Origin: Falsiroseomonas frigidaquae
Lineage (GTDB): Bacteria > Pseudomonadota > Alphaproteobacteria > Acetobacterales > Acetobacteraceae
Length of the DNA: 64,000 nucleotides
Direction of reading: 5' to 3'
NCBI RefSeq assembly: GCF_012163145.1
Contig: NZ_JAAVTX010000003.1
Coordinates: forward strand, 248,001 to 312,000
A model generated the notes under the pieces. The model was not told where the DNA came from. It did not search any database and was given only the letters and a program-made list of their open reading frames with translations. Each line of letters starts with the position of its first letter. The stretch's first letter is position 1. The translations under genes were made by a program, and so were the position numbers. Positions 1,234 to 14,270 of this stretch are shown here, in pieces.

Positions 1234-1293
1234 ACTGGCGGAGAGGGTGGGATTCGAACCCACGGTAGACTTGCATCTACTTCGGTTTTCGAG
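1234..1293 (+). repeat. attL, 3' fragment of tRNA-Ser
   Basis: This 60-bp stretch is identical to 14211-14270. It corresponds on the minus strand to the tRNA from the anticodon loop to just past the CCA end. Identity stops at the anticodon loop (after CGAG on the + strand), which suggests strand exchange there, a known crossover position for tRNA-targeting tyrosine integrases. The rest of the tRNA is missing here, so this copy is not a functional tRNA. Confidence 0.92.
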
Positions 1294-1409
1294 GACGAAG
1301 TAGTCAGGTTACGTGGGTCTCCGTCGGTCTGCGCAGTGCTACGCTGATCTATCGTAATACGGTGATTTTGCACGCTTTATAGCCCCGGCAGCCCCCGCAT
1401 CTTTCCGCT

Positions 1410-1444
1410 TGCTTCCGCAGCCGATGTCCGGTCATTGTCCGGTC
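1410..1444 (+). promoter_or_regulatory. putative left integrase arm sites
   Basis: The stretch contains TGCTTCCGCA (1410-1419), then GTCCGGTC at 1426-1433 and again at 1437-1444, 11 bp apart (one helical turn). The same composite with the same spacing and orientation lies at 14117-14151 near the other end. It sits between attL and the integrase start, so bound integrase could also repress its own gene. The binding role is inferred from position and symmetry. Confidence 0.6.
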
Positions 1445-1471
1445 TGGTTCAGGCGGCGAAGGAGGCGAGCG

Positions 1472-2827
1472 GTGACGGAGAGTGCGGCCAAGCTGAAGAT
1501 CATCCGCGAGGCCCCGAAGCGCCTGCGAACCAGCGACGCGGACCGCTACTGGCGGCAGCGGGCGCCTGGCCAACGGTTGGTGGTGGCGCACCCGGAGTGC
1601 CCCGGCCTGGCGCTCGTCATCCACGCCAAGACCTGGGCTTGGGTCCTTTCCTTCAAGCCGCGTGGGCGAGACAGCGTGACAGGAAAGCGCTTCCCCTCGA
1701 CATCCATGACGCTCGGCAGCCCGGAGCAGCTGAGCCCGGAGGACGCGAAGGATAAGGCGAACGCCTACAAGGGGCAGCAGAAGTCCGGCGTGGATCTGGC
1801 TGGCGAGCGACGCTCGAAGCTCGAAGCCGATGCCAAGGCGCGCAGCCAGACCGTCGAGCGGCTGCTCGATCGCTACAAGGTCTACCTGCCAACGCGGGAG
1901 AAGAGGAAAGGCGGGGGCACGCTGAAGTCCGCCTACGTGACCGAAGACCTCGCCTGCGTGGAAGCGGCGTTCCAGGCGATCAACGCCCTGTCGCGACCAG
2001 TGGGGAGCATCGGCAAGTCCGAGATCCTCGCCATCCTGAAGCACCGCGCTAGCGAGCAGAAGACTGGCCGCCGTTGGTTCCAGTCCGTCAGCCGCTTTCT
2101 CGACTGGGTGCACGAGGAGGAGATCATCGATGTGAACCCGTGCGAGTTGATTCCGAAGAATCGCCGCCCGAAAAAGCCGAAGGACCGCAAGCACTATCTC
2201 AGCGTCCCCGAGCTCGCGGCAATCTGGAAGGCAGCGGGCACTGTTGAGGGGCTGAACGACGCACACCGCGACCTTCAGCGATTCATCATCGCTGTGCCAT
2301 GCCGTGTCAGCGAGGCACGCCTGATGCGATGGGAGCACGTCAACCTCGTCGAGGGCATCTGGATGCAGCCAGACAAGATGACCTCAAACGAGAAGGCCCA
2401 CCGCATTTACCTGCCTTCCTTGGTGTGCGGCCTGCTCGCTGCCCGCCACGAGGCGCAGGGGAAGCCGAAGGCAGGTTGGGTCTTCCCTGGACCACGCGGG
2501 AAGGGCGCCATCACAGGCGAGAGCACGTTGAAGGCCCGCATGGAGAAGGCGAGCGGCTTGACGGGCTGGTGGAACCACGATGTGCGCCGCAGTTTCGTCA
2601 CCGTTCTTTCGGAGGAGCACGGACACGAGGAAGCAGTCCTAGATTTGGTCCTCAACCACAAGGCCAGCGCGTCGCGCCCCGGCGTGATGGGGACCTATCA
2701 GAGGGCCGAGAAGTGGAACGCGCGGAAGCAGGCCATGGTCGACTGGTGCGAGCTGTTGGATGCGCACATCAATCCTGTGACTGCGGAGCACCTGCCGGAG
2801 AATCTGCGGCATCTGGCCGCCGCCTGA
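1472..2827 (+). CDS. int: tyrosine-type site-specific integrase
   Basis: A 451-residue integrase that would excise and insert the element at tRNA-Ser. The C-terminal catalytic domain shows the family residues: Arg in PCRVSEARL, His-x-x-Arg in HDVRRS, His in LNHKAS and the nucleophilic Tyr in GTYQR. The N-terminal half has the arm-binding/core-binding layout (a region around KSAYVTEDL followed by FLDWVHEEEIIDVNPCELI). GTG at 1472 is chosen because GGAGG precedes it at 1461-1465; an in-frame TTG at 1409 lies inside the probable arm sites. The gene reads away from attL. The catalytic residues look complete. Confidence 0.93.
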   Translation: MTESAAKLKIIREAPKRLRTSDADRYWRQRAPGQRLVVAHPECPGLALVIHAKTWAWVLSFKPRGRDSVTGKRFPSTSMTLGSPEQLSPEDAKDKANAYKGQQKSGVDLAGERRSKLEADAKARSQTVERLLDRYKVYLPTREKRKGGGTLKSAYVTEDLACVEAAFQAINALSRPVGSIGKSEILAILKHRASEQKTGRRWFQSVSRFLDWVHEEEIIDVNPCELIPKNRRPKKPKDRKHYLSVPELAAIWKAAGTVEGLNDAHRDLQRFIIAVPCRVSEARLMRWEHVNLVEGIWMQPDKMTSNEKAHRIYLPSLVCGLLAARHEAQGKPKAGWVFPGPRGKGAITGESTLKARMEKASGLTGWWNHDVRRSFVTVLSEEHGHEEAVLDLVLNHKASASRPGVMGTYQRAEKWNARKQAMVDWCELLDAHINPVTAEHLPENLRHLAAA

Positions 2828-2950
2828 AATCCCTGCTCGGCGGGTTGCCGGGCGCGCCGCCGGAGGCGCCTGAAGGATCCGGAAATGCGGAGGCGGGTCG
2901 GTGCAGCGAACACCGGACCCGCCCATACCCAAACATGGAGGGATAGCCCC

Positions 2951-3421
2951 ATGCCTGAGTCGCCCTACGTGCCTACCACCGCTGCCCTGGCGCAGTTGAC
3001 TCGCATTGTCGCGATTGGCCGTTCGGCCGCCCCCCCGGCTCGTCCGTGGCCAGTCCACATGGTCGAGGAGATCCCGGAAGCATCGGCGAGTGGCCAGCTC
3101 GCGCGAGAGGCAGTGTCCCGCGTCGCGGCCGCTCATCACCCGATGGAGGAGATGCAGGGGTCTCTGCCAATCGAGATGCAGACCTTGAGCGGAGCCTGCA
3201 TCGCGGTGTCGCCCGACGATTGGGACAGGCTCACCGTCGAGTGCCGCGGCAATCGGGGCCTTCAGTCGATCACCATTTCCTCGCCTCGAGACGCAAGGGC
3301 ACTGGCGGCGGTGCTGAACGCCTTTGCGGACGCCATGGATAGCAGAGCAGCGTTGGAGGAAGCACGGCCAGAGGCACACGCGCAGATGCGGCAGAAGCGC
3401 TCCCGGCGACGCGCCAGCTAG
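2951..3421 (+). CDS. hypothetical protein of the element (156 aa)
   Basis: No family recognised. The frame is open further upstream, but ATG 2951 has a GGAGGGA sequence just before it. The C-terminus is strongly basic (RQKRSRRR), which could contact DNA. A middle stretch (ISSPRDARALAAVLNAFADAM) is predicted helical. It lies on the integrase strand and begins the run that leads into the replication genes, so an accessory role in element maintenance is possible but not shown. Confidence 0.6.
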   Translation: MPESPYVPTTAALAQLTRIVAIGRSAAPPARPWPVHMVEEIPEASASGQLAREAVSRVAAAHHPMEEMQGSLPIEMQTLSGACIAVSPDDWDRLTVECRGNRGLQSITISSPRDARALAAVLNAFADAMDSRAALEEARPEAHAQMRQKRSRRRAS

Positions 3422-3493
3422 GCGCCCGGCAACTGGCTCGGCGGAGCAGGCCCAACCTGCGCCGCCCTTCCTCTTCATGAAGCGAGGTGATCC

Positions 3494-13187: not shown

Positions 13188-13662
13188 GTGCCGCCCATGG
13201 AGCGCCTCGAGAGCTCTTTCGCCGCCACTGGCAACCCGATCTGCGCTTGGCTTGCGGTTCGTCGCATCACGCGGGATGGCCGCGCTGACTTGCCCGAATG
13301 GGTGTTGGTCTACCTCCGCGAGGCCAGCCACGAGGTGATGCGTCTCGCGATGGGCCACACGCACTACACGCGTCCGCTGCCGCGGTCATAAGCCTGGGCC
13401 CGGGCGTTTCGGCTGGTGGTGAACACGCGCCATGCGGCAGCGGCCTACCTCCAGGCGGCAGAGGAGGCCTGGAGTCTGAAGGCTCAACTTCGAGGTCAGT
13501 CGGGGGCGCCCGGCCGGGGAGGCCGTGGCCTCCTTAGCGGCTCACTGGAAACAGGACAGTCGCAGCATGCAGCGCCGCCTTGCCCGCGCGCGGAGGGTAT
13601 TTGGCTTCGGGCTGCCGTTCGCAGATCGTCCGCTGCCACGGCGTCCCAAGCGGCCAAGGTGA
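13188..13662 (+). pseudogene. broken element gene (in-frame stop and frameshift)
   Basis: ATG 13188 opens a frame with ATGNPICAWLAV and ADLPEWVLVYLREA, a pattern common in small hypothetical proteins of alphaproteobacterial islands. A TAA at 13389-13391 interrupts it. The same frame then continues with protein-like AFRLVVNTRHAAAAYLQ. Near 13505 the coding signal moves to another frame and reads AVASLAAHWKQDSRS then MQRRLARARRVFGFG until TGA at 13660. One stop and one frameshift over 475 bp argue for a recently inactivated gene. Confidence 0.55.
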
Positions 13663-13754
13663 CGGACTTGGGGCCAAGTGCGGGGGACGCTATCGAGGCC
13701 TCGCATCTGCATCCTCCGGCCAGCCTGCGGACCACCGCGGCACAGGAGGCATGG

Positions 13755-14066
13755 ATGCCGAAAAGGAAAGCCGGGCGCCGCGTCGCGCCGACAAAACCGC
13801 CTCCACCCTCGCTACCGCCGGACCAGCTGCTCAACCGAAAGGCTGCAGCCGAGCTCGCCACCAAGGAATTCTTCCCGGTGTCAGACAGGACAATTGAGCG
13901 GTGGCCCCTGGCGTGGCAGCGTCGCAACGGAAGGGTCGACTGCCGCGCGGAGGATCTTCGCGAATTCCTGAACCGGCGGCTGGAAGAAGCTCCCTGGCTG
14001 CAAGGAGGACGGTCGAAGCGCCGATCGTCGGAAGATGGATCGCATCGAGCCGGGGCGACCTGCTAA
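13755..14066 (+). CDS. AlpA/excisionase-like HTH protein 2 (103 aa)
   Basis: Paralogue of the protein at 4243-4533. The core reads NRKAAAELATKEFFPVS then RTIERWPLAW and RRNGRVDCRAEDL, ending LNRRLEEAPW. The basic N-terminus (PKRKAGRRV) supports DNA binding. ATG 13755 has AGGAGG at 13744-13749; an out-of-frame ATG at 13751 lies in between. It is the last gene before attR and the right arm sites, the position expected of a recombination directionality factor. That role is inference. Confidence 0.7.
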   Translation: MPKRKAGRRVAPTKPPPPSLPPDQLLNRKAAAELATKEFFPVSDRTIERWPLAWQRRNGRVDCRAEDLREFLNRRLEEAPWLQGGRSKRRSSEDGSHRAGATC

Positions 14067-14116
14067 GGTGCCGCGGCGGGCCTTACAGCTAGGCCGCGCC
14101 TACGGGCACTTCCGTC

Positions 14117-14151
14117 TGCTTCCGCACCATGCGTCCGGTCTAAGTCCGGTC
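14117..14151 (+). promoter_or_regulatory. putative right integrase arm sites
   Basis: TGCTTCCGCA (14117-14126), GTCCGGTC (14133-14140) and GTCCGGTC (14144-14151) repeat the composite at 1410-1444 with identical 16-bp and 11-bp spacing and the same orientation. It lies 60 bp inside attR. The matching pair at both ends supports integrase or excisionase binding. Confidence 0.6.
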
Positions 14152-14210
14152 ACAGCCGGTTCTGAAACCGAGATTGGGCCGGACAGAAAGCACGATAAGC
14201 CACTGAAAAT

Positions 14211-14270
14211 ACTGGCGGAGAGGGTGGGATTCGAACCCACGGTAGACTTGCATCTACTTCGGTTTTCGAG
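14211..14270 (+). repeat. attR, overlapping intact tRNA-Ser
   Basis: Perfect 60-bp copy of 1234-1293. The element supplies or preserves the 3' part of the tRNA here, so the gene remains functional after insertion. Confidence 0.92.

Follow-up and report, generated by a model that had tools for sequence, protein, structure and literature searches.

Several kinds of described element resemble the subject of this report, a stretch of about 13 kb (positions 1234–14270) lying in a tRNA-Ser gene of Falsiroseomonas frigidaquae, within a 64-kb segment of contig NZ_JAAVTX010000003.1 (hereafter the window, to which all unlabelled coordinates refer; L and G numbers denote loci and genomes). The broadest of these kinds is the tRNA genomic island as outlined for Islander (PMC4383910), in which island sizes peak at 13.6 kbp. 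The window element shares with such islands an intact tRNA gene, a displaced 3' fragment of it in the same orientation, an integrase gene inside and an attachment site of the anticodon type. The tRNA gene and the fragment are on the correct side and in the correct orientation, at a separation (12,977 bp) within the 2–200 kb of the definition, and the enclosed integrase is a tyrosine integrase that differs at one conserved position. By this definition the element is a tRNA genomic island; what is particular to it is its integrase clade, its arm-site motif and its reversed core.

Two kinds of phage satellite are closer in gene content. Like P4-like satellites, the window element carries a tyrosine integrase at one of its ends, genes for primase/helicase replication and paired arm repeats flanking the core. 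It differs from them in lacking any match to Psu, Delta, Epsilon, Alpha or AlpA (PF07455, PF04606, PF10554, PF03288, PF05930), and while the P4 core reads ...CACCA in the sense of the integrase gene (int), the core of the window element is antisense to int. In the related CP4-57 of E. coli, intA is followed by alpA, then by a DUF3987 gene and lastly by a helicase gene, each separated by other genes. With phage-inducible chromosomal islands (PICIs) of Gram-negative bacteria, of the EcCICFT073 type, the element has in common an integrase and a replication module, the absence of detected structural genes and a size within 12–15 kb (features as outlined in PMC6092414). The integrase and replication genes of the PICI order are present, while the regulator candidate, alp1, is unlike AlpA. 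General profile scans found no structural or lytic genes in its 12,977 bp. PICIs use attachment sites not used by prophages; here, a capsid-bearing contig has an integrase of the same clade at a tRNA-Thr fragment, so an apparent phage uses the integration module too, and at tRNA-Ser(CGA) no prophage was seen, no systematic search having been made.

The best explanation of the locus is an integrated mobile element belonging to a family of small elements, and for this explanation as a whole we regard the case as evenly balanced. Its parts differ in strength: that the integrase made the insertion is practically certain, replication after excision is probable for the family, and transfer dependent on a phage is a reasonable possibility for the family, short of probable. 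The proposed course is that the integrase, through the left arm pair just before int, would repress its own promoter while integrated, and that alp1 or alp2 would act as excision factor or switch. In members that function, the circle released by excision would be copied by the primase–ATPase–helicase operon and moved by a phage, a satellite life style, and the cassette at 10488–12834 would serve the host or the element, most likely against phages. The window copy would have entered by this route and may now be locked. The element is ordinary in kind, as a tRNA-integrated element, and it belongs to a family for which a literature search on titles and the starts of abstracts returned no description.

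The insertion in tRNA-Ser

An earlier note, made from the sequence alone, described a perfect 60-bp repeat around 13 kb inserted in tRNA-Ser, and both observations hold. Positions 1234–1293 and 14211–14270 are identical at 60 of 60 bases, and are 97% alike when extended to 65 bp. In the 6.08-Mb host genome the complete repeat occurs only at these two sites, the other matches being partial (78% over 58 bp, and 93% over 30 bp). ARAGORN finds a single tRNA in the window, an intact tRNA-Ser(CGA) at 14213–14302 on the minus strand. The right repeat copy forms the 3' part of this tRNA and, followed from the 3' end, stops two bases beyond the anticodon (14266–14268); the attachment site is of the anticodon-loop type. 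The element proper stops at 14270, while the intact tRNA runs on to 14302.

The note had proposed a comparison with relatives lacking the insert. All 15 other genomes of the genus have the tRNA-Ser(CGA) gene, 14 of them with rplU beside it (in G003 the two are on different contigs), and in none does the stretch beyond the tRNA 3' end (0.5 to 16.7 kb each) show a match of at least 150 bp to element DNA. Eight relatives with a recognisable native block directly after the tRNA allow the two sides of the insertion to be told apart, each comparison being set against 300 dinucleotide shuffles. The left flank, read outward from 1233, matches the native block in five of the eight (G015, G008, G011, G005 and G003; z 5.6 to 11.7, 0/300 shuffles each) and is unmatched in three (G009, G013 and G010; z −1.2, 0.6 and 1.8). 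The element end adjoining the intact tRNA is unmatched (best z 2.1, 12/300 shuffles). Since the left flank resembles native downstream DNA and the element end does not, the left copy (1234–1293) is the displaced original 3' part of the host tRNA, from anticodon loop to 3' end, and the right copy (14211–14270), which completes the working tRNA, came with the element. The intact tRNA would then be a hybrid, with its 5' part from the host and its 3' part from the element.

The G+C content of the element is 67.9%, versus 70.4% to its right. To the left of the insertion lies a histidine kinase/response regulator gene (14–1054), whose best relatives are located away from tRNA-Ser in sister genomes (about 171 kb off in G015), so the region has also been rearranged. 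A further boundary of variable DNA is seen in G015, G008, G003, G005 and G011 (L041, L045, L053, L052 and L050), where a conserved block of ∼260 bp directly after tRNA-Ser is followed by differing DNA. In G004 (L047) a frame of 522 aa starts 88 bases after the intact tRNA-Ser(CGA). It was considered as a classical integrase beside the same tRNA and dropped: blastp aligns it only weakly with a single clade integrase (E 0.002), and the clade profile misses it.

Integrase and arm sites

The integrase gene (1472–2827, plus strand) encodes 451 aa from a GTG start behind GGAGG, and scores just above the Pfam cut-offs for PF00589 (27.4 bits, cut-off 27.1) and Arm-DNA-bind_3 (29.7, cut-off 27). Inside each end of the element an 11-bp unit (TGTCCGGTCA, TGTCCTGTCA and close variants) stands twice in tandem, at 1425–1445 with 11-bp spacing on the left and, by the same motif scoring, at 14132–14152 on the right (both plus strand). 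Pairs of this kind occur at similar places in 10 of the 11 complete elements scored (L113 was left out of the scoring), 103 to 157 bp from the repeat on the left and 42 to 91 bp on the right. In these ten both ends reach a pair score of 17 to 20 out of 20, and for 19 of the 20 arms no other 300-bp interval of the same locus scores equally high. A mismatch-free pair is found in the host genome only at 1426 and 14133, and the pattern with up to one mismatch has 2 forward and 0 reverse matches genome-wide. The weight of the arm-pair evidence is in the location of both exact copies at the two element ends.

Because the P4 record annotates its 12-bp arm repeats as tandem pairs flanking the core on both sides, the 11-bp pairs are read as candidate integrase arm sites. 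The left pair is 26 to 47 bp ahead of the int start codon. An int promoter that overlaps the recombination region is predicted, in the outline given by PMC2951348, to lead to self-repression; by that reasoning self-repression would be expected here too, the promoter falling within the recombination region. The attachment site of the circular form very probably has the plan arm pair, core, arm pair, int, as in P4, except that the tRNA core runs opposite to int. The 21-bp arm-pair motif is also seen in two viral contigs of one metagenome (L244 2420–2440, L245 342–362), a few kb ahead of a gene read as a terminase (Pfam match weak or none); a related integrase was not found in the contig stretches examined.

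A family of small elements with one integrase clade

When the integrase is searched against 299 genomes of its bacterial family, 23 match at E 1e-20 or better. A close group (E 2.1e-62 or better) comprises 19 loci in 18 of the 299 genomes, the window included, and its 19 integrases form one supported clade (99/99). Among 385 genomes drawn from the class, a sample that held few genomes of this bacterial family, the host itself is the sole match at 1e-60, and a scan of named genomes returned two loci. Both ends can be seen in 12 elements (11 relatives and the window), which range from 5.0 to 24.9 kb and are inserted in tRNA genes of six identities: Lys (L105, L108, L109, L110), Thr (L104, L117), Met (L106, L107), Arg (L118 and the 24.9-kb L113), Ala (L120) and Ser (the window). 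L117 has an exact repeat of only 20 bp, with a tRNA-like fragment of 47 bp.

In all 12, int is located beside the tRNA fragment, and the intact tRNA, antisense to int, closes the opposite end. In six loci cut by contig ends (L111, L112, L114, L115, L119 and L121) an antisense 3' fragment likewise precedes int; in L116 a tRNA fragment before int was not found. The earlier note had described this arrangement correctly for the window and had called it unusual, which is not borne out within the genus. A genus survey covered 60 of 105 integrase matches, the others being the 30 best (L151–L180) and 15 more that include the clade members G002:C1:35119 and G004:C28. Neither a tRNA nor a tRNA fragment adjoins 38 of the 60 loci. 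In the remaining 22 the antisense fragment before int occurs 12 times, an intact convergent tRNA downstream 6 times, an intact upstream tRNA of the same sense twice, and two other arrangements once each. Some of the 12 appear to be near-copies from sister genomes (L205, L208, L211), and the fragment side alone was checked in them. Int beside the tRNA fragment is hence the commonest tRNA-linked arrangement in the genus sample (12/22) and is not unusual there.

The eight next-best integrases of the family-wide search show a different picture, six having an intact tRNA directly before int in the same sense and two having none in the stretch examined (fragments were unverified), so that both arrangements exist in the bacterial family. 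Integrase genes adjoining tRNA genes have been sorted into four classes, with STI accounting for 736 and OC for 438 of 1273 (PMC2951348). The window element is like these in that its int promoter region overlaps the recombination region, and unlike them in that int adjoins the displaced fragment; an arrangement common in this genus thus falls outside the four classes as that source outlines them. The reversed geometry as a special trait of the clade is ruled out by the genus survey and by a locus outside the clade that has the same geometry. This locus, in Rubritepida flocculans (L102 6524–13237), is an element of 6.6 kb in tRNA-Arg; it has a 46-bp repeat, a distant integrase, a 56% identical ATPase, and int on the fragment side.

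The replication genes of the window element form a tight operon with overlapping starts on the plus strand, and Pfam confirms the integrase and primase/ATPase/helicase module that the note had named. The first gene (4780–5745) encodes a DUF7146-Toprim primase of 321 aa (PF23639 E 3.7e-26; PF13362 E 8.2e-16; phrog_510, DNA primase, E 1.9e-40). Its stop is overlapped by the start of an AAA_25 ATPase gene (5742–6932, 396 aa; PF13481 E 1.8e-32), of a family that we take to be RepA/DnaB-like, and the stop of the latter by the start of a RadD-like helicase gene (6929–8512, about 527 aa; PF04851, ResIII, E 1.4e-28; PF00271, Helicase_C; phrog_16 E 2.4e-94), whose RadD model score of 161.5 bits is under the cut-off of 720. 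By clustering, the DUF7146-Toprim primase is present in 8 of the 19 loci. DUF927 takes its place in L110 and L120 (Pfam) and in L118 and L121 (same cluster), and DUF3987 is found in L107 and L108, L107 also having a Prim-Pol protein. Genes of the relatives come from a simple codon-bias caller that misses small genes such as alp, and Pfam was run on 24 selected proteins out of the 125 clustered. The family consists of small elements with interchangeable replication genes and cargo.

Two small genes on the plus strand belong to a further conserved family. The first, alp1 (4243–4533), encodes 96 aa, looks helix-turn-helix (HTH)-like by eye, has homologues in 13 of the 18 related loci and gives no meaningful match in Pfam, PHROG or PDB (a profile search of PDB returned two weak matches to unrelated proteins, E 0.18 and 0.76). 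It is a candidate excision factor or regulator. The second, alp2 (13755–14066, 103 aa), is its paralogue at the far end, with 46% identity over 61 aa (E 7e-16). The note had called the two AlpA-like; they are indeed real paralogues, but AlpA identity is not supported by Pfam, PHROG profiles or hhalign.

The link to phages

Phage structural and conjugation genes were said in the note to be lacking, and this agrees with the scans: no phage structural, conjugation, relaxase or secretion family is matched among 15 element open reading frames in Pfam (up to E 0.05) or among the 10 scanned with NCBIfam. The relaxase or conjugation genes of an integrative and conjugative or mobilisable element are accordingly not found in these open reading frames. 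The resemblance in size and gene set to a satellite or autonomously replicating island, also put forward in the note, stands as far as an integrative element with its own integrase and replication genes is concerned; known markers of satellites and packaging genes were not found in this copy with Pfam and PHROG.

A link to phages comes from an integrase alignment search of IMG/VR, which returned one contig of 17,162 bp (IMGVR_UViG_3300001213_000811); the window integrase alone as query returned nothing there, and its best-ranked match in a phage collection is 27.6% identical. The contig starts with an antisense tRNA-Thr fragment, followed by an arm pair and an integrase of the same clade (41.5% identical to that of the window, 64% to that of L114). 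Genes further along encode a Phage_capsid protein (E 2.7e-59), an SLT-domain protein of 1519 aa (a putative tape measure), a homologue of alp (58%) and a Prim-Pol protein. With a clade integrase, an arm pair and alp beside a capsid gene, the same integration and regulation module therefore serves an apparent phage. This makes a satellite life plausible, yet the module alone does not make a satellite, and for the window element itself the status of phage satellite is a plausible proposal.

Candidate packaging genes are hinted at in two relatives, L104 and L106, and not in the window element. The N-terminal 41 to 47 residues of a 224-aa protein of L104 (6384–7055, minus strand) match 12 phage records (E 2e-4 to 5e-3), eight of which are annotated as terminase small subunit. 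A 40% relative of this protein in L106 (9640–10350) matches none. L106 also encodes a T7 gp14-like protein (11992–12516), under the Pfam cut-off.

Points against, and alternative explanations

A number of results weigh against the explanation as an element of this family with a working cycle. At column 305 of the integrase alignment the window has S, whereas K stands in the other 19 of 20 rows, those of 18 clade loci and of the viral contig; we take this K to be the active-site lysine of tyrosine recombinases, and a full catalytic set is ruled out by this S. The end branch of the window integrase is the longest in the clade (1.04 vs 0.09 to 0.59). The right end of the element looks partly decayed, and no convincing iteron-like origin is seen in the four gaps searched. 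None of 15 alp family members matches the AlpA profile (PF05930; PHROGs), and hhalign of the family against four AlpA/Vis-type proteins gives a probability of 0.1. Capsid, terminase, Psu, Delta and Epsilon families have no match in the window element (Pfam, PHROG), and the HK97-type capsid PF05065, the sole capsid family tried on the host genome, has none there. As for the arm sites, the score was devised after the sites had been seen, the motif is absent from L120 and L121, and a backwards control pattern with one mismatch allowed has 3 reverse matches genome-wide. It was the result at column 305 that brought our confidence in the explanation as a whole down, from somewhat favourable to evenly balanced.

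The same lysine bears on the alternative that survives best, an immobile remnant or domesticated cargo island, made by the integrase, now locked, and kept, if at all, for its cassette. The integrase stands alone among 20 in lacking the lysine and has the long branch. At the far end, beside alp2, an apparent remnant (13188–13391, plus strand) is seen of the gene that precedes alp in L105 and L109 (38% over 52 aa to the L109 protein, E 4.8e-7; weak to that of L105, E 0.018); a decayed second copy of this gene together with alp suggests leftovers of an older family member. That the cassette is conserved elsewhere also fits a cargo island. On the other hand, the integrase frame is open, with R278, H369, R372, H396 and Y409 (the R, HxxR, H and Y positions) kept, and K302 and K308 flank column 305 at three residues either side. 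The displaced fragment, presumably free of selection as a tRNA, is still identical at all 60 positions, arguing for a fairly recent insertion, and relatives are without the insert. We consider this alternative unlikely, although the window copy may be locked, being the only one of 20 without the conserved lysine. With the missing lysine and long branch weighed against the identical fragment, the chance that the copy is still mobile through its own integrase appears a little short of even.

An integrative element that does without phage help, excising, copying itself and spreading by conjugative mobilisation or natural uptake, would be consistent with the integrase and replication operon, with the absence of detected phage structural genes, and with the presence of the cassette on conjugative or mobilisable plasmids. 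No relaxase or transfer family is matched, the one weak TraI match (TIGR02760, 42 bits vs a cut-off of 930) being restricted to the primase-like part, and the integration module recurs on the contig with the capsid gene; this alternative is rather improbable. A decayed prophage, derived from a temperate phage like IMGVR_UViG_3300001213_000811 by loss of its structural genes, would account for a viral contig that shares the integrase clade, the arm pair and alp while encoding a capsid and putative tape measure, and for the partly decayed right end, but is improbable, as the replication operon is intact with overlapping starts, the replication modules differ among members, and the 24 selected proteins of related loci include no structural family above the Pfam cut-off.

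The cargo cassette

In the explanation as a mobile element of this family, the cargo of the window copy includes a cassette of three genes on the minus strand. The first (11992–12834, or 12810 as the start) belongs to the TIGR04255 family (81.4 bits, cut-off 30), the second (11342–11995) encodes an HTH protein of 217 aa with a weak HTH_3 match (E 0.0077) and homologues in the same order, and the third (10488–11324) an unknown protein of 278 aa. Relatives of genes 3 and 1 occur in the same three other genomes (out of 299 searched for gene 3 and 200 for gene 1), with the HTH gene between them and the order kept (L131, L132, L133). TIGR04255 relatives are present on five plasmid records. Two were opened, a conjugative plasmid of Mesorhizobium and a mobilisable one of Robbsia, and both have all three genes, gene 3 included, in the same order (L248 5001–7232, L249 3998–6305). 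Against profiles of the window family the plasmid genes give E 1.1e-63, 3.5e-21 and 3.5e-33, and 1.2e-23, 7.6e-5 and 2.7e-12 (207 sequences searched). The TIGR04255–HTH–unknown cassette is thus conserved as a unit, both in genomes and on plasmids, among Alpha- and Betaproteobacteria. Both plasmid HTH proteins have, by eye, an N-terminal stretch resembling a membrane anchor.

An anti-phage or toxin–antitoxin-like role of the cassette is proposed tentatively. Action against phages in particular is suggested by the genomic company of the cassette: among cargo of the relatives, PADLOC recognizes IetA/IetS in the tRNA-Ala element L120 (12879–16225), genes for type I restriction and specificity in L109, and in L112 a DrmMI/type IIG-like protein, with nothing at 1e-8 for five other proteins in the same scan. 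For the window proteins the matches are limited to generic helicase and ATPase ones. Profile searches of PDB for cassette genes 1 and 3 returned nothing, and TIGR04255 is not named in the literature searched.

If the family reading is true, the combination of an integrase clade and a fixed arm motif with changing replication genes and cargo, at six tRNA identities, offers a means of finding satellite-like elements within this alphaproteobacterial branch. The module on the capsid-bearing contig points to phages as possible helpers, and the known defence genes in the cargo of three relatives make the cassette a concrete candidate for a new defence system. A wider conjecture, which we think unlikely to be right in full, is that of a satellite family of Roseomonas-like bacteria sharing the whole integration switch (integrase, 11-bp arm pairs, alp and reversed anticodon-loop core) with the temperate phages that would mobilise it, and with a cargo slot that would house anti-phage systems, including a new three-gene system of TIGR04255, HTH (membrane-anchored in some) and 278-aa unknown proteins.

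Other genes

Further reading frames are present in the element. Between int and alp1 are two genes of unknown function on the plus strand, at 2951–3421 (156 aa; an open reading frame that the codon-bias caller does not call, without a match in Pfam or PHROG) and at 3494–4153 (219 aa; called by codon bias, without a match in Pfam, PHROG or NCBIfam). A lipoprotein-like gene with a weak DUF3108 match (PF11306, 25.5 bits, cut-off 26) is located at 9101–9706 on the minus strand. To the right of the element, beside obg, the window encodes a Fic/SoFic-type protein with Fic_N, Fic and HTH domains (16311–17459).

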